Source: a virus. From it: a stretch of 39,886 nucleotides of DNA. Made by a program: the position numbers and the translations under genes. Under the pieces are notes generated by a model. The model did not search any database. It was not told where the DNA came from and saw nothing but the letters and a program-made list of their open reading frames with translations. Shown one piece after another: positions 1,435 through 39,476 of this stretch (position 1 is the stretch's first letter; the number at the start of each line of letters is the position of its first letter). Where the stretch lies: the IMG/VR virus record IMGVR_UViG_3300015171_000012, positions 1-39,886 of that record; one strand, 5' to 3'.

Positions 1435-1880
1435 AGATTTGTAACTCATGCAATGAAGTTGGCGAGTTCAGGTCAGACGCTAGAAGTAGCGACGGTCTAC
1501 AAGGCATTTGCAGAGAATGCCAAAGAAAATACCAAAGAGAATATAATAAAACCTATAATTCTCTACAGTCAACCAGAGACTATAAGCGAGATAGGGAGCT
1601 TAAAGACTTTTGGCCAGATTGTAGCCCAAAACAGGCCAGAGAAAATTACAATACGCTATACGCTAGACAAGACGGATGCTGCGCAGTATGTCAAAAGCAC
1701 CAATCAGAGTTTAGTATTTCGTTGTCCGTCGATCATGACCACGATACGGGCTTTGTGCGCGGACTTCTATGCGGAAATTGCAATAGAGGCCTTGGCCTAT
1801 TTATGGACTCCGAAGATTCCTTAATGAAGGCGGCGTCATATATTTCTAAAAATAAAGAAATTAAATTGGTGGCTTTATGA
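1431..1880 (+). CDS. Endonuclease VII-like HNH nuclease (free-standing homing endonuclease)
   Basis: 149 residues with a GTG start overlapping the previous stop. The N-terminus has a Cys4-type zinc site (CNSC about residue 4, CREC about 27). The C-terminal half carries the recombination endonuclease VII signature: CCAVC (about 87), SVDHDHDTG (about 102), RGLLCGNCN (about 114), the His/Asn metal-finger active site. Two relatives occur at 5338 and 8553. It is squeezed between a head gene and the portal with ATGA overlap. Such genes usually act as selfish homing nucleases, although a Holliday-junction resolvase role cannot be excluded. Confidence 0.88.
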   Translation: MKICNSCNEVGEFRSDARSSDGLQGICRECQRKYQREYNKTYNSLQSTRDYKRDRELKDFWPDCSPKQARENYNTLYARQDGCCAVCQKHQSEFSISLSVDHDHDTGFVRGLLCGNCNRGLGLFMDSEDSLMKAASYISKNKEIKLVAL

Positions 1881-3799
1881 AAATAAAGAAGCCCAAAGAC
1901 CCAATAACTAAAATAGTAATGCAGACAAAACCTAAGGCTGACTTATCCGGAAAAGGGGCTTTAGCTGAGTGGTGGTTAGAGAAGTCCGATGAGAAACGTG
2001 CTGCTGAACTCTGTGGCACTGCTGCATACTTAAAGACAAATCAAACATATGCAACACGACAAGACGCCGCCAATGTACGCTTATACTGCGGATTAAGCGT
2101 TTATAGCTATGCTGGAAGCAATGTTTCCAACATGAACAGGACTCGCACTCTTCCTGAAGACCGCCCTACGTTCAATCTCATTCAGGCTTGTACGGATACC
2201 CTAGTGTCTCGCATTGGGCAGGATAGGCCCGAGCCCAAATTCTTAACTGATGGGGCTGATTACAAACAACGTCACTTAGCCCAAAGACTCAATCAATTCA
2301 TTCTAGGCGAGTTCTATCAAACAAAAGCATACGATAAGGCAATTAAGATGCTTCGTGACGCTATTGTTATGGGGACTGGATGTTTAAAGGTTTATGAAGG
2401 CGAAGACGGTAAGGTTTCTGTTGATCGAGTGATGAAAACGCACCTTTATGTAGATGACAATGATTCTATCAATGGCGACCCGCAACAGCTTTATCAATTG
2501 AAGTTAATGGATCGGGATAAGTTACTTGCTAATAGCCCTAAAAAGGCAGCTAAAGTAATTGAAGGCACTCCTAATAGCTATCCAGACAATACTCCTGATT
2601 CGGGTAGAACGGTTTCTGATCAAGTTATGGTCGTAGAGGGATGGAAGTTACCTAGCGGTCCAGACAAAGAAGCTCCTGGCTATCAAGCTGGACGTCATAC
2701 GATTGCTACAGTTAACGGCATTATATTCGACGAGGAATGGCACAAGCCAAAATTCCCATTCGTCTTCATGAATTACTCCGATCCCTATTTAGGGTTCTTC
2801 GGCCAGGGTCTCGCGACCCAACTATTTGGAACCCAGCTTACGCTGAATCGCATTCTGTACACAATTGCGCAAGCCATCACGCTTGTTGGCGTCCCACGTG
2901 TGTTTATTGAGCAAGGCAGTAAAGTCAGTAAGACAGCGATCAATAATCAACTCGGCGTCATGTGTACTTATACTGGAGTAAAGCCCAGCTACGAGGTCGC
3001 TCCCTGTAACGCTCCCGAGCTCTACGCCGAAAGAGATAAGCTCATACAGTATGGGTTCCAACAATGCGGTGTCTCTATGATGCAAGCGTCCTCCCAGAAG
3101 CCAGAGGGATTAAACTCCGGAGCTTCAATACGTTCCTTTGATGATATTTCCACAGATCGAATGGCAACGGTATCTAAAAAGTATTCAAACGTCTTCGTTG
3201 ACCTCGCATATCTCATTGCTGACTGCGCCATGGATATTGCTGAACGAGATGGTAAGTACCAAACTGTTTACCCTAATAAGGATGGAACGAAGGAAATTGA
3301 CCTTCCCGCAATGAAGTTCTTGAAAGATCCTTTTGTTATCCAGTGCTTCTCGGAAAGCTCCCTTCCTAGGACTCCAGCCGGTCGCATTCAAACAGTTACA
3401 GAGCAAGTTCAGGCTGGAATGCTTACCATTAAAGAGGGACGTCGCTTGATGCACTTCCCTGATTTAGAACAAAATGAGCGTCTTGATAACGCTTCTGAAG
3501 AGAGAATCTTTAAAATCCTTGATGATATTGTCGAGAAAGGTAAATACGAACCACCAGATCCGTTTATTGACCTTCAATTGGCTACACAGTTAACTGTTCA
3601 GTACATTAACTTGTACCTTGCTGCCAACTTGGAAGAGAAGAAAGCTGATTTACTTAGGAACTTCTTCAAACAATGCCAAACATTGATCCAAGCAGCCATG
3701 CCGCCTCCCATGCCTCAACCACAAGCCAACCCAGAGGCCCCTCCAACATCTCCACTAGTTCCCAATAGTCCCGCCGCGCAGCCACAACAAGCGGCATAA
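1877..3799 (+). CDS. Portal protein, podovirus P22-like
   Basis: 640 residues. The portal forms the dodecameric DNA channel at one capsid vertex and docks terminase and tail. The size, the place between terminase and scaffold/coat genes, and the core (FGQGLATQLFGTQLTLNRIL, about residues 305-330, the wing/stem region of P22-type portals) support the call. The C-terminus is a Pro/Gln/Ala-rich tail, as in many podovirus portals where it leads into the barrel. The ATG overlaps the endonuclease stop. A 43-base gap with a small hairpin follows before the scaffold gene. Confidence 0.88.
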   Translation: MKIKKPKDPITKIVMQTKPKADLSGKGALAEWWLEKSDEKRAAELCGTAAYLKTNQTYATRQDAANVRLYCGLSVYSYAGSNVSNMNRTRTLPEDRPTFNLIQACTDTLVSRIGQDRPEPKFLTDGADYKQRHLAQRLNQFILGEFYQTKAYDKAIKMLRDAIVMGTGCLKVYEGEDGKVSVDRVMKTHLYVDDNDSINGDPQQLYQLKLMDRDKLLANSPKKAAKVIEGTPNSYPDNTPDSGRTVSDQVMVVEGWKLPSGPDKEAPGYQAGRHTIATVNGIIFDEEWHKPKFPFVFMNYSDPYLGFFGQGLATQLFGTQLTLNRILYTIAQAITLVGVPRVFIEQGSKVSKTAINNQLGVMCTYTGVKPSYEVAPCNAPELYAERDKLIQYGFQQCGVSMMQASSQKPEGLNSGASIRSFDDISTDRMATVSKKYSNVFVDLAYLIADCAMDIAERDGKYQTVYPNKDGTKEIDLPAMKFLKDPFVIQCFSESSLPRTPAGRIQTVTEQVQAGMLTIKEGRRLMHFPDLEQNERLDNASEERIFKILDDIVEKGKYEPPDPFIDLQLATQLTVQYINLYLAANLEEKKADLLRNFFKQCQTLIQAAMPPPMPQPQANPEAPPTSPLVPNSPAAQPQQAA

Positions 3800-4805: not shown

Positions 4806-5117
4806 ATGGCAATTTCGCCCGTATATGCAAACAGTAGTAATCAGATCGCAGCTTTGAAAGAGTTGACGACTGATGACAAAGATTACATGAAAAATATCGT
4901 GTATTCTAAGAACCCACGTCTAGCAATGGTCCATAAGAACGAAAGTCCTGATGGCTTTGCTGGTAAATATATTCCGGTTCCTCTGGAATACGGCAATCCT
5001 CAAGGTCGCGCACACGTGTTCGCAAATGCTCAGAATCAGCAAACTGCTTCTGATGTAGTTTCGTACTTCGTGTATGCGGTACAGGATTACCAACTTGTTA
5101 CCATTACTAACCTCCTT
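4806..5117 (+). CDS. Major capsid protein, exon 1 (residues 1-104)
   Basis: Encodes the N-terminal 104 residues of the coat protein. The frame runs on to a stop at 5142-5144 inside an intron; unspliced RNA would give a 112-residue truncated product. The proposed splice point is after T5117: UCCUU pairs with GGGGA (5126-5130) to form P1 with the expected U.G pair. Joining 4806..5117, 5871..6789 and 7017..7078 gives 1293 bases, exactly 431 codons including the stop, a 430-residue protein, the same length as the P22 coat protein. YGNPQGR lies at residues 62-68. Confidence 0.85.
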
Positions 5118-5337: not shown

Positions 5338-5838
5338 ATGCCGAACTTGTTCAAAAAGTGTGTGAAGTGTGAAGAGATGAGAAATGCAGATACAGAGTAT
5401 CATCTAAACGGAGCCTACTACAAAGGTGGGATAAAGAAGCGAAGAACTGATTGCGTTTATTGTTGCCGAAAGAGAAGAAGCGAATATTTTAAAAACGCCG
5501 ATTCAAGGGTAAAAATAAACACAAGAAGGCGCAGAAATTATCAAACCGATGGCGGAGCCAGAAGAGAGAAGAACAGAAAAAACTCTCTCAAGCAGCTTTA
5601 TGGAATGTCAGTTGAGCGCTATGACGAGCTTAGAAAAGAGCAAAATTATAGTTGTGGAATCTGCAAAATCCATGAGTCTAAAGCTATCCGCGGTAAGCTA
5701 TATGTCGATCACAATCATATCACTGGAGAAAATCGAGGATTGCTTTGTAGCAAATGCAATTCGGCTCTAGGTTTCTTTCTGGATAGCCCAGAAATAATGA
5801 AAAGAGCGATTGATTTTATTTCAAGAACAAGAAGTTAG
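5338..5838 (+). CDS. Intron-encoded endonuclease VII-like homing endonuclease
   Basis: 166 residues. N-terminal Cys4 zinc finger (CVKCEEM about residue 8, CVYCC about 41), a basic helical linker, then the endonuclease VII core SCGIC (about 109), YVDHNHITG (about 125) and RGLLCSKCN (about 136). It lies wholly inside group I intron 1, the classical arrangement for a homing endonuclease that spreads its intron. Its ribosome site AGGGTG (5325-5330) can pair with CACCCT (5310-5315), so translation may be restrained from full-length capsid mRNA. Confidence 0.88.
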   Translation: MPNLFKKCVKCEEMRNADTEYHLNGAYYKGGIKKRRTDCVYCCRKRRSEYFKNADSRVKINTRRRRNYQTDGGARREKNRKNSLKQLYGMSVERYDELRKEQNYSCGICKIHESKAIRGKLYVDHNHITGENRGLLCSKCNSALGFFLDSPEIMKRAIDFISRTRS

Positions 5839-5870
5839 GATAAAAAGCCTAACGATAACAGCTCTGCATG

Positions 5871-6789
5871 GAGCAAACAAAAAGTAATGCTGGCGCCTTC
5901 GTTGATGAAGCAAGCCGTACCCTTGACAACGGGTTTCGCAACTTGTCGAACAACATGGCGTTTGAATTGTTCTTCGGTGGTACAGCTTCACGCGGTGTCA
6001 TCGGTAGCGCAGTTCTAGCTGCAGGTGTAGTGACTATCGTACTAAGCAATGCGCAAAACGTAGTACAATTTGAAGTAGGAATGACGCTTCAAAATAGTGC
6101 AACGGACGGCGGCGCAGCCCTTCTTATCGGTGGTGTAATTGACGCAATTCAATTGACCTCGGTAAACCGTGGTAACGGCACTCTCGTAGGTACGGTAGTT
6201 CAAGGCTCGGGCGCTTCGTTCGTAGCTGGTGACTTCCTACAGGTTCTTGGCGACATCGGTTCTGCCGGTGCTTCCACGATCGCTGGATTGCTCGGTTTGT
6301 CTGGTTTGGCTGCATGGATTCCAGCAGTTGACCCAATCAACACGGACAATTTCTGGGGTGTAAATCGTTCTGCTGATCCAACTCGTTTGGGCGGTCTACG
6401 ATACAATGCATCTGCACAGTCCATTAGCGAAGGCATTACAAACGCCCTTGCTTTCGGTAACCGTGAAGGCGCATCGTTTGACCTGATCACGATTGACTTC
6501 GTAAGCTACAGCACGTTGATTAACGAGCTTGGCGCGAAAGTTCAGTATGTTCAGCTTGAGCATGATGAAGTAGAAGTAGCTTTCGAAGCTATCCACTTCC
6601 ATAGTGCTTATGGAAAGATCCCAGTATTGGCAGATCGTTCTTGCCAAGCTCAAACTGCATGGGCAACTACCGAGGAGACGCTTAAACTCCGTACTCTTGG
6701 TAAAGCTCCTCACATTTTGACATATGGGATGGAAGGCCTAGAGGGTTTGCGGGTTGGAAACGCGGACGCGCTCGAAGTACGTATTGCCT
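5871..6789 (+). CDS. Major capsid protein, exon 2 (residues 105 to 411)
   Basis: Central part of the coat protein; an ATG at 5868 makes it look like a separate 317-residue gene, but no ribosome site precedes it. It includes a beta-rich Gly/Val insertion (about residues 150-240), then FWGVNRSADPTR (from 265) and FGNREGAS (about 299-306), both shared with the short protein at 37469. The frame ends at 6821 only because it enters intron 2. The splice after T6789 is set by the P1 pairing AUUGCCU with AGGGCAAU. Confidence 0.85.
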
Positions 6790-7016: not shown

Positions 7017-7078
7017 ACTACGGCAATCTTATTTGTAGCGCACCGGGCTACAATATGCAAATCGCTCTTAGCGCTTAA
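7017..7078 (+). CDS. Major capsid protein, exon 3 (C-terminal 19-20 residues)
   Basis: Very short last exon encoding YGNLICSAPGYNMQIALSA and TAA. It would be missed by normal gene finding because it has no start. It is supported by its strong resemblance to the C-terminus VICTAPGYNLRG of the 37469 protein, by the in-frame join with exon 2, and by the terminator that follows 25 bases after the stop. Without it the coat protein would lack its last beta strand. Confidence 0.82.
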
Positions 7079-7233: not shown

Positions 7234-8553
7234 ATGAGTCAGCCACGTGGTTTTGGTCTAAACGGTAAATCCCTCTACACTAACATTTGTCTACCCCAAG
7301 AAGTTAACTGTAACTTCGTTGTAGATTCGCAAAATGGTAACGGTTTAGGCATTCGCTCTCTTAAGAGCAACGGATATGTTGCTAACGTATTCATGAATAC
7401 CTCCGCAGCTCCTGCTGGAAGTCCCGCAATGGGCGCAGCTCGTGCATTCGCAATCTTAGGCGCTTCCGCTGTAACCAACACCGGTAACAGCGTACTTACT
7501 GGTAACCTTGGCGTTAGCCCTGGTGTGGCCATCACTGGTTTTCCTCCTGGTACCTTTAGCGGTACTGAGCATATTACTGATGTTCTTGCGGCCCAAGCTC
7601 AAGCGGCTGCTCTAGTTTCTTACAACGATCTTCACTCTCGCGCATCTTCTGTTATCGCTACGGAATTAGGCGGTCAGAGTTTGACGGCTGGTGTTTATAG
7701 CTCTGCTGGCGGTACTTTCACTGGTACTGGCGGTCTTACGCTTACACTTACTGGTACGGCTACTGATATTTTCGTATTCCAAACCGCTACAACCCTTACA
7801 ACGGGCGTTGGAGCCGGTGGTAACTTCGTAATCACCCTCGCTGGTGGTGCATTAGCTTCAAACGTATATTGGGCAGTAGGATCTAGCGCAACGATCAACA
7901 GCGCAGCATCTTCTGCTGGTTCTGTGTTTAAGGGTAACGTAATTGCACAATCTAGCATTACGGCTACACAGGTTGGAACAATAGACGGTAGTTTGATCGC
8001 TCTTACTGGCGCGGTGACATTGAGTGCTGCAAACGCTGTTCTTGCTCAGCCTTTCGCTGGAGCTCCTCTTGGTGGAAACCCAAATCCTCTTCCAGGTTAT
8101 GCTTGGATTCAATTAAACAATAACTTCAACAAATACATTGGCGGTTTCTCTGGTTTCGTATCTCCGCTTAACGGTGTATCTGTAACGAGCGTAGTTCTTG
8201 GACAGGCTTATGTGATCGTCTCTCTTGGTACGACCACATTAGCTCAATGGCAGTCTGCTGGTCTCCCTCCTGGATTGGTTCCAGCAGTTGGTCAGAGCTT
8301 CATTGCTAAAGCTTCTCAAGCATTGGGCGGATCTGGCGCAGTTCAGGCTCCAATCGTTTCCGGAATTAACTCTCTAGAAGTTATTGGTGATCCTAATCTT
8401 TCGATTAGCAACTCCAACATCGCTAAAAATAACGGCGCATGGCTTCTTGTTCAGTTCTTGTCTAACGGTGTTCTACAAGCACCCAAAGACGGTTCTGTAT
8501 GCGGAATGCAAATGATCTTTGACGGATCTAGCGTTAGCATAGACGGCCTTTGA
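7234..8553 (+). CDS. Capsid-associated protein with an inserted ice-binding (DUF3494) domain
   Basis: 439 residues. Residues 1-66 and about 280-439 look like one virion protein (NCNFVVDSQNGNGLGIRSL...; PGYAWIQLNNNFNKYIGG). Between them, about 70-270, lies a full DUF3494 ice-binding-like beta-solenoid: FAILGASAVTNTG, GNLGVSPG, TGFPPGTFSG, AAQAQAAALVSYNDL, ELGGQSLTAGVYS, FQTATTLTT, VYWAVGSSATI, and GSLIALTGAVTL. The domain borders carry similar APxGxP motifs. It follows the coat gene, and an AAGGAA ribosome site precedes the ATG. Host DUF3494 proteins bind ice or act as adhesins; here a virion-surface role is inferred. Confidence 0.85.
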   Translation: MSQPRGFGLNGKSLYTNICLPQEVNCNFVVDSQNGNGLGIRSLKSNGYVANVFMNTSAAPAGSPAMGAARAFAILGASAVTNTGNSVLTGNLGVSPGVAITGFPPGTFSGTEHITDVLAAQAQAAALVSYNDLHSRASSVIATELGGQSLTAGVYSSAGGTFTGTGGLTLTLTGTATDIFVFQTATTLTTGVGAGGNFVITLAGGALASNVYWAVGSSATINSAASSAGSVFKGNVIAQSSITATQVGTIDGSLIALTGAVTLSAANAVLAQPFAGAPLGGNPNPLPGYAWIQLNNNFNKYIGGFSGFVSPLNGVSVTSVVLGQAYVIVSLGTTTLAQWQSAGLPPGLVPAVGQSFIAKASQALGGSGAVQAPIVSGINSLEVIGDPNLSISNSNIAKNNGAWLLVQFLSNGVLQAPKDGSVCGMQMIFDGSSVSIDGL

Positions 8554-9041
8554 TGCATAGCATGATTACAAAATCATGCACAAGATGTCTTGAGAATAAG
8601 CCCCTAACTGAATTCTGGAAACACCCAGGAGCTAGAATGGGGCTTACTCCACGCTGCAAGCCGTGCCATAGAATTACTGCCAAAGAATGGAGAGATAAAA
8701 ATCCAGAAAAGTTGGCAATAAAACAGGCTAAAAATGCAGAGTATGAAAGAAATCATCCAGCCGAGGCGTTTAATAGAAGACTTAAATATACTCATGGAAT
8801 AGATAAAAAAGAGTGGGATTCTATGTATTCTTCACAAAATGGTTGCTGCGCGATATGCGAAAGACACAGCAGTGAGCTGTCTAGGGTTCTTCAGGTCGAC
8901 CATAACCATGCTACTGGGGAGATTAGAGGCCTACTCTGTACCAAATGCAACACAAGGCTAGCAGCAGTTGAGGATGAAAAGTTCTCAAAAAGGGCCATAA
9001 TTTATTTAAATAAAGTTAGATTAAGATTGGTTGGTGCGTAA
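8553..9041 (+). CDS. Endonuclease VII-like HNH nuclease (free-standing)
   Basis: 162 residues from the ATG overlapping the upstream TGA (TTTGATG). N-terminal zinc finger CTRC (about residue 9) and CKPC (about 35), then the nuclease core CCAIC (about 96), QVDHNHATGE (about 111) and RGLLCTKCN (about 123). It is paralogous to the nucleases at 1431 and 5338 but diverged outside the motifs. It is wedged between two virion genes with overlaps at both ends, typical of a free-standing homing nuclease that replaced an intergenic junction. Confidence 0.87.
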   Translation: MHSMITKSCTRCLENKPLTEFWKHPGARMGLTPRCKPCHRITAKEWRDKNPEKLAIKQAKNAEYERNHPAEAFNRRLKYTHGIDKKEWDSMYSSQNGCCAICERHSSELSRVLQVDHNHATGEIRGLLCTKCNTRLAAVEDEKFSKRAIIYLNKVRLRLVGA

Positions 9042-37200: not shown

Positions 37201-37479
37201 GTGACGTTCATAAAAGGACAACCAAAACCAGAGAAGGCAGGCAGAAAGCCTGGGACGCCCAACAAGCGACGATCTATTGAGGATCTATGCCTAGAGGCTG
37301 GAGTCGATCCCTTTCGTGTAATGGTCGATATGCTCCAAGATGAAGATAAGGTTTTAAGGTTTCAATCCGCTAAAGAGCTTGCTCAATACTTGGAAGCCAA
37401 GAAGAAACAACTTGAAATAGCTTTAGACCCAGACAAGAACAAAATAGAGATAATCATTAAGAGGTACGGTGAAGCCTAA
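37201..37479 (+). CDS. Terminase small subunit-like protein (putative)
   Basis: 92 residues, GTG start. N-terminus KGQPKPEKAGRKPGTPNKR is basic and disordered like that of many phage DNA-packaging proteins; then SIEDLCLEAGVDPFRVMVDML and SAKELAQYLEAKKKQLEIALD, a helical domain. This type of short protein regularly precedes the large terminase and is often annotated as its DNA-recognition partner. It overlaps the capsid-like gene by 11 bases. Confidence 0.55.
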   Translation: MTFIKGQPKPEKAGRKPGTPNKRRSIEDLCLEAGVDPFRVMVDMLQDEDKVLRFQSAKELAQYLEAKKKQLEIALDPDKNKIEIIIKRYGEA

Positions 37480-38044
37480 AAGATTCATAGATTCATTGCC
37501 CATTAGTAAGCTTGAGGGCGAGCCTGGATGCGATAAGGAGATAAAGAATATTGTCTTCCATCTGCAATATGGAACGCCACAAGGACGTTGTTGCTCATTT
37601 ACATCGGTACAGGATTATCATACCGCTGCAATTGTTCCACGCTTCACCGTCCCCATTGATTCTAATCTTGGCCCAGATGATTGGCTGACTAGAAGCCACG
37701 ACGAGCTTGGCGAGTTTTATTGCGTGGATAGATCTATTGACCCGGTTCGATGCGCTGGAATTCTCTACAAGATCCCAGATGTTACTCTCGAAGAGATGGT
37801 GGTAAATGCAATGGCTTATGCCAACAGAGAGGGCGCCAATCCAATAGAATGCTATCTTCCCTCATTATTGCTGCCAAAAGATGAGATTATTTTCACATGC
37901 TATGGCAGAGTTGAATGCTATTCATGTGACGATCTGACCAGTGATTTATTCCTTCTTCAGCGAGATACATGGATTAGATATAAGAATACGGTGATTTGTA
38001 CCGCTCCAGGATACAATCTACGCGGAATAATAAGTGAAGCTTGA
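37469..38044 (+). CDS. Miniature paralogue of the major capsid protein
   Basis: 191 residues, GTG start, overlapping both neighbours. It aligns with the phage's own coat protein in three blocks in the same order: YGTPQGR (34-40) with YGNPQGR (62-68); FYCVDRSIDPVR...NAMAYANREGA (83-123) with FWGVNRSADPTR...NALAFGNREGA (265-305), about 18 of 43 identical without gaps; VICTAPGYN (175-183) with LICSAPGYN (415-423). About 155 coat residues between blocks 1 and 2 and 55 between blocks 2 and 3 are missing. It is intron-free and lies beside the terminase genes. Role unknown. Confidence 0.82.
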   Translation: MKPKRFIDSLPISKLEGEPGCDKEIKNIVFHLQYGTPQGRCCSFTSVQDYHTAAIVPRFTVPIDSNLGPDDWLTRSHDELGEFYCVDRSIDPVRCAGILYKIPDVTLEEMVVNAMAYANREGANPIECYLPSLLLPKDEIIFTCYGRVECYSCDDLTSDLFLLQRDTWIRYKNTVICTAPGYNLRGIISEA

Positions 38045-39476
38045 AATCGCACTTCAACCAAAGCAGGAGAAGTTCCTTGAAACTATTGAAAAGACTCCTA
38101 TTACGTTTTACGGAGGAGCTAAGGGCGGCGGTAAGAGCAAGGGATTGCAGCTTATTATGCTGCTACGACGATTTGAGTATCCTGGAAGCACGGGAGCCAT
38201 CTTCCGACGAACATATCCTGAACTCGAGGGCAATCACATACGCCCGCTTTTTGCGGCATTCCCGGAACTAAAGGAATATTGGCATGAATCAAAGAAACTC
38301 CTTACTCTCCCGAATGGCTCTACGCTTCAATTCTGTCACTGCTCTAATGAGAATGATGTGGATCTTTATCAAGGCCGCGAGTTCCATGACTTGGCAGTTG
38401 ACGAGGCGGGTCAATGGACGGAAGGCATGTTTCGTAAGCTCCTTGGGTCTAATAGATCATCGCAATCTAGTATACGGGCAAGAGCGATACTCACTGGCAA
38501 CCCTGGCGGCATCGGGCACGGTTGGCTTAAGCGTTTATTTATTGAAAGACGATTCAACGAGAGAGAGCGGCCAGAGGATTATGCCTTTATCCAAGCTTTG
38601 GTGGACGATAATGCTGCGCTTATGGAGAACGATCCGTCATATGTACACAGGCTTAATTCTGAACCCAACGAAGCCCTACGAAAAGCCTATAGATTCGGAG
38701 ATTGGGATATATTTGCAGGACAGTTCTTTCAGGAGATAGATCGCAATGTACATTTTATTAAGCCCTTTGAGATACCTCGCCATTGGAATAGATTTGGTGC
38801 TTACGACTTTGGTTACAATCACCCTGCTGCCTTTGGTTGGTTTGCTAACGATGAGGACGGCAACACTTATCTGTATCGCGAGTTTGTCCAAGCCGGATTA
38901 CGCGTGGATCAATTTGCAAAGAGTATCAATCAATACACAGACACATCTCTATTGTACCCAATCGTCGCCGGACACGACTGCTGGACGACTAAAGGAGTTC
39001 TTAAGGATAATGCACAGCCACCTACGGTTGCAGAGGAATTCAATTCCCATGGAATTCAGCTTAAGAAAGCGACTATTGACCGTATTCAGGGGGCGGCGCA
39101 TCTTCGTTCATACTTAGCCCTGCGTGGAGAGAAGAAGAAACCACGCTTATACATCTTTAACACGTGCCCCATAAGCTTTGATTGCCTTAGCAGGATGATC
39201 CACGACCCAGATAGAGTAGAAGATGTTCTTAAGGTTGATGCTACCGAAGGCGATCCATTGAGCGGTGACGATGCTTACGACATGATTAGATATGGTCTTA
39301 TGTCTCGTCCAGCTATCACTGATCCTATTGTTCCTAAGCACGCTGTGGGCTCTAAACAGTGGTATCAGGAACAAGCTGACATCAATTGGGATAAAGAACG
39401 AGAAGCTATCGAAAAATCAGCAGGAATGGACAATAACTGGCCAGAAATGCCCGATAATCAGTGGAATAGTTACTAA
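38034..39476 (+). CDS. Terminase large subunit
   Basis: 480 residues, GTG start overlapping the capsid-like gene. Packages DNA through the portal using ATP and cuts it with a C-terminal nuclease. Walker A GGAKGGGKS (27-35), Walker B LAVDEA (120-125), coupling motif GNPGG (155-159). The RNase H-like nuclease has acidic residues at AYDFGYNHP (D258), AGHDC (about 326) and GDDAYDMIRYG (about 430). Complete length. Followed by the fifth late-unit motif. Confidence 0.93.
   Translation: MKLEIALQPKQEKFLETIEKTPITFYGGAKGGGKSKGLQLIMLLRRFEYPGSTGAIFRRTYPELEGNHIRPLFAAFPELKEYWHESKKLLTLPNGSTLQFCHCSNENDVDLYQGREFHDLAVDEAGQWTEGMFRKLLGSNRSSQSSIRARAILTGNPGGIGHGWLKRLFIERRFNERERPEDYAFIQALVDDNAALMENDPSYVHRLNSEPNEALRKAYRFGDWDIFAGQFFQEIDRNVHFIKPFEIPRHWNRFGAYDFGYNHPAAFGWFANDEDGNTYLYREFVQAGLRVDQFAKSINQYTDTSLLYPIVAGHDCWTTKGVLKDNAQPPTVAEEFNSHGIQLKKATIDRIQGAAHLRSYLALRGEKKKPRLYIFNTCPISFDCLSRMIHDPDRVEDVLKVDATEGDPLSGDDAYDMIRYGLMSRPAITDPIVPKHAVGSKQWYQEQADINWDKEREAIEKSAGMDNNWPEMPDNQWNSY

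Follow-up and report, generated by a model that had tools for sequence, protein, structure and literature searches.

Results

A coat-derived gene at the terminase junction

The window, by which we mean the whole stretch of DNA analysed here (39,886 nucleotides; IMG/VR virus record IMGVR_UViG_3300015171_000012, positions 1 to 39,886), carries between the genes for a probable small terminase (terS) and the large terminase (terL) a short gene that we call mini (Table 1). The mini ORF shares 11 bases with terS and another 11 with terL, and it has no intron, both as the original prediction had described. Its start resembles that of terL, with 8 of 11 bases matching past the start codon, a level reached by 2 of 703 start pairs in the window.

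Where the head genes of relatives are closely related to those of the window, mini is missing and terS and terL adjoin directly or almost directly; the nearest relatives, which lack mini at this junction, share head proteins about 60–90% identical to those of the window. A vertex or minor capsid paralogue of the gp24 kind would be expected to keep its presence and position in relatives, which mini does not. Two relatives carry something else at this place: L101, the relative with the terS most like that of the window, has an unrelated 93-aa ORF that overlaps both neighbours, and L096 has a 62-aa cysteine-rich ORF. The terS–terL junction is thus a variable slot, empty or holding unrelated inserts in relatives. 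The start of the L101 insert also matches the terL start at 8 of 11 bases (background about 1%), which suggests that mini and the L101 insert alike entered the slot with a duplicated terL start region. By eye the L101 insert had appeared coat-like, a resemblance that we rejected because the HMM gives it no support. In L039, a tRNA-like 3' end (GGTTCGAATCC) lies in the terS–terL gap at about 2352–2424.

Table 1 Features of the window and coat-derived ORFs of related viruses (locations without a record label refer to the window)
Feature	Location	Strand	Basis or remark
Portal	1877..3799	+	PHROG 156, E 1e-7
Coat exon 1	4806..5117	+	Boundary predicted from intronless relatives
Endonuclease VII-type HNH gene within coat intron 1	5338..5838	+	Pfam PF02945, E 3e-21
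Coat exon 2	5868..6788	+	Boundaries predicted from intronless relatives
Coat exon 3, ending ICSAPGYNMQIALSA	7019..7078	+	Boundary predicted from intronless relatives
Probable terS (small terminase), 92 aa	37201..37479	+	Synteny, position, tblastn to relatives' terS
Shine–Dalgarno-like AGAGG ahead of mini	37460..37464	+	Sequence
Coat-derived mini gene, 191 aa, GTG start	37469..38044	+	ORF and coat profile match
Start of mini GTGAAGCCTAAAAG	37469..37482	+	Like terL start, 8/11 beyond GTG
Mini block E, aa 26–61 = coat about 54–89, YGTPQGR	37544..37651	+	HMM domain 1
Mini block B, aa 80–125 = coat about 264–311, FYCVDRSIDPVR...NREGA	37706..37843	+	HMM domain 2
Mini stretch aa 143–166 (CYGRVECY..RDTW) = coat about 352–376, weaker	37895..37966	+	Alignment; tail beats 1000 shuffles
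Mini block C, aa 169–185 = coat about 413–429, VICTAPGYN	37973..38023	+	HMM domain 3
terL (large terminase)	38034..39476	+	PHROG 979, E 1.5e-46; Pfam
terL start GTGAAGCTTGAAAT	38034..38047	+	Counterpart of mini start
Class I	L003:3289-3471	+	
Class I	L010:4369-4626	+	
Class I	L020:3727-4047	+	L020 is the same virus as L019
Class I	L042:2476-2829	+	
Class I, 300 aa	L105:1799-2701	-	
Class I	L110:2862-3143	-	
Class I	L188:1992-2366	-	Between terS and terL
Class I	L190:1709-2023	+	Between terS and terL
Class I	L192:2031-2336	-	
Class II	L004:727-1062	+	After GNAT-like gene; flanking genes same as L191
Class II	L191:1843-2151	-	After GNAT-like gene; flanking genes same as L004
Class II	L189:1819-2166	-	Between portal and putative scaffold gene

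The coat gene and the head module

The window's own coat gene is split by two introns and would yield, after splicing, a protein of about 430 aa, the exon limits being approximate; a search of the introns against Rfam returned nothing above threshold. One member of the coat family matches PHROG 9953, 'major head protein' (E 1e-8), and a model of the coat of relative L003, made from the family alignment, has the HK97 fold with the SU10 capsid as its best match (E 6e-7), its spine helix spanning residues 102–139 and its beta insertion residues 145–231. Profile searches find one full coat per record, and for this reason we rejected the possibility that mini belongs, as an exon, to a second and spliced copy of the coat. 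The head module of the window contains three related endonuclease VII-type HNH genes, at 1431–1880, 5338–5838 and 8550–9041; the first of these directly precedes the portal gene, a place that is occupied in L003 by a coat N-arm ORF.

Homology of mini to the coat protein

A coat HMM built from 23 relatives matches mini in three collinear domains at 57.1 bits (E 6e-20 as a single target and 1e-15 among 14,705 ORFs), and a broader HMM of 39 sequences scores it at 52.9 bits, against 2.1 bits for the best of 1000 shuffles; a lack of significant profile similarity, which the original prediction had named as grounds for abandoning it, is the reverse of what was found. With the middle block removed, mini scores 16.7 bits (shuffle maximum 6.9), while its head (aa 1–78) scores 13.6 bits (maximum 2.5) and its tail (aa 127–191) 5.4 bits (maximum 4.3; n = 1000 in each case). 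The three blocks that had been read by eye as shared with the spliced coat are real, and the middle one is, as claimed, identical to the own coat at 18 of 43 residues without a gap.

When aligned with 28 coats by MAFFT, mini is collinear with them from the N- to the C-terminus, with gaps at coat about 34–59, 90–240, parts of 310–345, and 380–412, in agreement with the earlier estimate that about half of the coat fold is missing. Mini has lost the spine helix, the beta insertion and the greater part of the N-arm. What it keeps are segments that correspond to the base of the E-loop, to the helix region of the A-domain and to the region of the C-terminal strand, together with an N-arm remnant (DKEIKNIVF, cf. 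DKDYMKNIVY of the coat) that alone is not a significant match. Mini does not contain the complete HK97 fold, with its N-arm, E-loop, spine helix, and P- and A-domains. The predicted structure of mini is of low confidence (mean pLDDT 49); the C-terminal half of this model has the helix and strand order of the coat, and the PDB entries that match it best, SU10 and HK97-type capsids, do so at weak E-values (0.04 or weaker). By profile and alignment, mini is homologous to the HK97-fold coat protein.

Age and origin of mini

Mini is 34% identical to the own coat over 188 aligned columns and 38% identical to the nearest coats, its middle block reaches 55% identity to coats of other phages, and it forms a long branch lying outside the coats; as a miniature of the phage's own coat in particular, which is how it had been introduced, it does not stand up. 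Between mini and the own coat, first and second codon positions are 0.56–0.63 identical, and third positions are 0.37 and 0.21 identical in the two main blocks, at or near chance. With third positions at chance, and with an own coat that does not rank among the closest, mini did not arise recently as a copy of that coat, and we rejected a recent duplication. Close homologues of mini were found neither in IMG/VR, queried with the single protein or with an alignment ranked on mini, nor in INPHARED; no close donor coat appeared in the best 80 of 262 IMG/VR coat relatives ranked by mini, and no relative was found in the bacterial genomes scanned with the coat profile. Mini may have undergone either long separate evolution or capture from an unsampled coat lineage, and the saturation of codon positions could also follow from the recent capture of a piece of an unsampled distant coat.

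Coat-derived short ORFs recur in related viruses

We ran profile searches on another 140 records of relatives, many of which are short fragments, and in 11 other viruses identified coat-derived ORFs lying elsewhere than in the coat gene; 9 of the 62 records of at least 25 kb, the window included, carry such a short ORF. In class I, the coat N-arm (coat about 17–66, NPFLALxPK...GKYIPVPL) usually forms the C-terminal part of a ~100-aa protein, in eight of the nine proteins the motif starts 23–44 residues from the C-terminus, and the N-terminal parts are mostly unrelated to one another across the nine viruses. The class I genes of L188 and L190 occupy the same slot as mini, terS being assigned there by position. 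The class I protein of L010 opens with MDRRGFLKTLLGTGVAL, which resembles a Tat-type signal or a membrane anchor. Class II consists of standalone ~110-aa proteins that correspond to coat about 287–370, a piece of the A-domain; those of L189 and L191 are 27–29% identical to that of L004.

Every class I and class II ORF outscores all of its shuffles. An HMM built solely from the three class II ORFs recovers the coat from most of 98 records (E 1e-4 to 1e-15), and a model of class I alone finds coats at E about 1e-14; none of the coat-derived ORFs scanned has a significant Pfam or PHROG match. The pooled identities of the other fragments at the three codon positions (0.51/0.68/0.30) follow the same pattern as in mini. 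Most of the coat-derived short ORFs occupy variable slots in the packaging and head operon. Mini is likewise a short coat-derived ORF outside the coat gene, with neither the class I nor the class II layout, and by its alignment it is a third kind in which several coat blocks are kept with deletions between them. The homology and its recurrence form the firm part of the case.

Two further candidates were set aside. The C-terminal part of the 300-aa ORF of L105 looked coat-like by eye and was rejected when 389 of 1000 shuffles scored as high, and a 72-aa ORF of L010 (coat about 288–320) was left uncounted as marginal, at 4.4 bits against a shuffle maximum of 4.0. Hitchhiking with homing endonucleases as a possible source of the fragments gained no support. 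HNH-like genes lie beside two fragments, those of L105 and L110, but none in the set is related to the one at L110, and the one at L105 matches none inside the coat introns of relatives.

Discussion

We favour, at just short of an even chance, a model whereby mini is an accessory gene for a long-diverged, internally deleted relative of the coat protein that acts by subunit mimicry. In this model, translational coupling between terS and terL would yield mini as a product of the structural operon, and mini would bind the coat or a coat recogniser, such as the scaffold, the portal/terminase complex, or a factor of the host or of a rival phage, via its retained coat surfaces, thereby modulating assembly or keeping the binding partner occupied. 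Translation, folding, partner and effect are steps that we infer, and so is the choice between a role in assembly and one in conflict. Because the spine helix, the beta insertion and most of the N-arm are lost, an ordinary lattice position is unlikely for mini, and the patchy, fast-turning-over distribution fits a role in conflict or competition at least as well as one in assembly. It is possible, and we propose it tentatively, that this uncultured SU10-like family repeatedly makes accessory proteins from coat pieces, either for capsid mimicry directed against hosts or rivals or as a capsid-docking module. A single mechanism common to all fragments is an assumption, because the fragment classes keep different coat regions. 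More generally, the recurrent homology suggests that phages repeatedly reuse pieces of their shell protein for another job.

Mini might act specifically as a decoy in counter-defence, with its coat-like surfaces keeping coat-sensing immune proteins of the host from being triggered by the real coat. Coat-sensing defences are established: CapRel contacts the P-domain sheet, the spine helix and A-domain loops of the HK97-fold coat (PMC9712102), and ThsB of Thoeris senses coat (PMC11312562). The recognised coat surfaces are partly present in the fragments. That such immunity is well established makes a decoy a testable proposal, with its tie to this phage group hypothetical. The presence of the fragments in accessory slots is patchy, as is typical of conflict genes, and the coat regions kept vary between viruses. 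We nevertheless regard a decoy as unlikely, because mini lies in the structural operon and is hence probably late, because it lacks the spine helix that CapRel contacts, and because no precedent for a coat-fragment decoy was found in the open-access literature searched. If mini were directed at competitors, it would be a coat piece of the defective-interfering type, able to poison or divert capsid assembly in related phages or satellites that co-infect the cell. Where a shell is shared, truncated subunits would make natural dominant negatives, and the genes are lineage-specific, none being common to the nearest relatives, but the own coat would have to be spared even though it is as similar to mini as other coats are, and such interference seems to us quite improbable.

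The location in the packaging module beside terminase would suit a minor structural or assembly protein (a vertex, portal-vertex, internal or size-determining subunit), as would the position of the class II gene of L189 and the precedent of gp24 of T4, which probably arose from duplication of gp23 (PMC9958956). However, mini is missing from the junction in the nearest relatives and is not syntenic, and most lattice-forming elements are lost from it, whereas gp24 retains the full fold. Absence from close relatives and the loss of lattice elements, among them the N-arm and the spine helix, together with residence in a cargo slot, thus argue against a conserved role as vertex subunit, portal-docking subunit or size determinant, possibilities that the original prediction had listed, and a structural role of this kind has in our estimation a low probability. 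Mini and the other fragments might instead be functionless, decaying remnants of coat pieces that recombination or homing-endonuclease repair scattered into intergenic slots. Introns and HNH genes abound in the family's coat genes, most fragments are singletons, and the start of mini resembles a duplicated terL start, a likeness shared by the L101 insert and expected by chance at about 1% in either case. What makes decay rather doubtful is that an open frame of 191 codons has a chance of about 1e-4, that mini has a proper start and tight overlaps, that first and second codon positions are kept while third positions are saturated, that class I repeatedly ends just beyond one coat position, and that the syntenic class II pair is only 27% identical.

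The nearest known parallel of mini is the derivation of gp24 from gp23. Both cases involve a second coat-derived gene in one genome that is about 20–35% identical to the coat, but gp24 has the full HK97 fold and is both essential and conserved, and mini is cut down and lineage-specific. The capsids of SU10-like podoviruses contain segments homologous to mini, and the coat of the family matches both the SU10 fold and PHROG 9953; mini, however, spans less than half of the fold and is not classifiable as a capsid subunit on the evidence. Interference and capsid-remodelling proteins, among them Gag-derived restriction factors such as Fv1 and satellite proteins such as P4 Sid or PLE TcaP, act by binding the viral shell protein, an activity that mini may share. 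These are host genes or satellite scaffolds, and to our knowledge none of them is a coat-derived fragment retained by the phage itself. The open-access literature searched yielded no account of coat-fragment genes recurring in phages and nothing matching on truncated or second coat copies.

The coat, which is known to trigger bacterial immunity, is the most abundant and among the most constrained of phage proteins. Our interpretation, if true, would reveal a recurrent route to new phage genes out of the shell protein, and repeated reuse of coat pieces would point to a class of capsid mimics that standard annotation misses. The genes reported here, about a dozen, make up a testable set in which shell fragments may be studied as assembly regulators, decoys or anti-rival weapons.

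Finally, we note several features of the coat genes and their surroundings. In the window and in many relatives, the coat gene is interrupted, the sites being coat about 28, 34, 38, 50, 56–64, 104–115, 340–353, 390 and 411, and the interruptions often hold HNH genes; by eye, the edges of the deletions in mini seem partly to coincide with family intron sites. The first gene 3' of the coat in the window (7234–8553) encodes an ice-binding-like domain (PF11999, E 3e-40) within the structural region.
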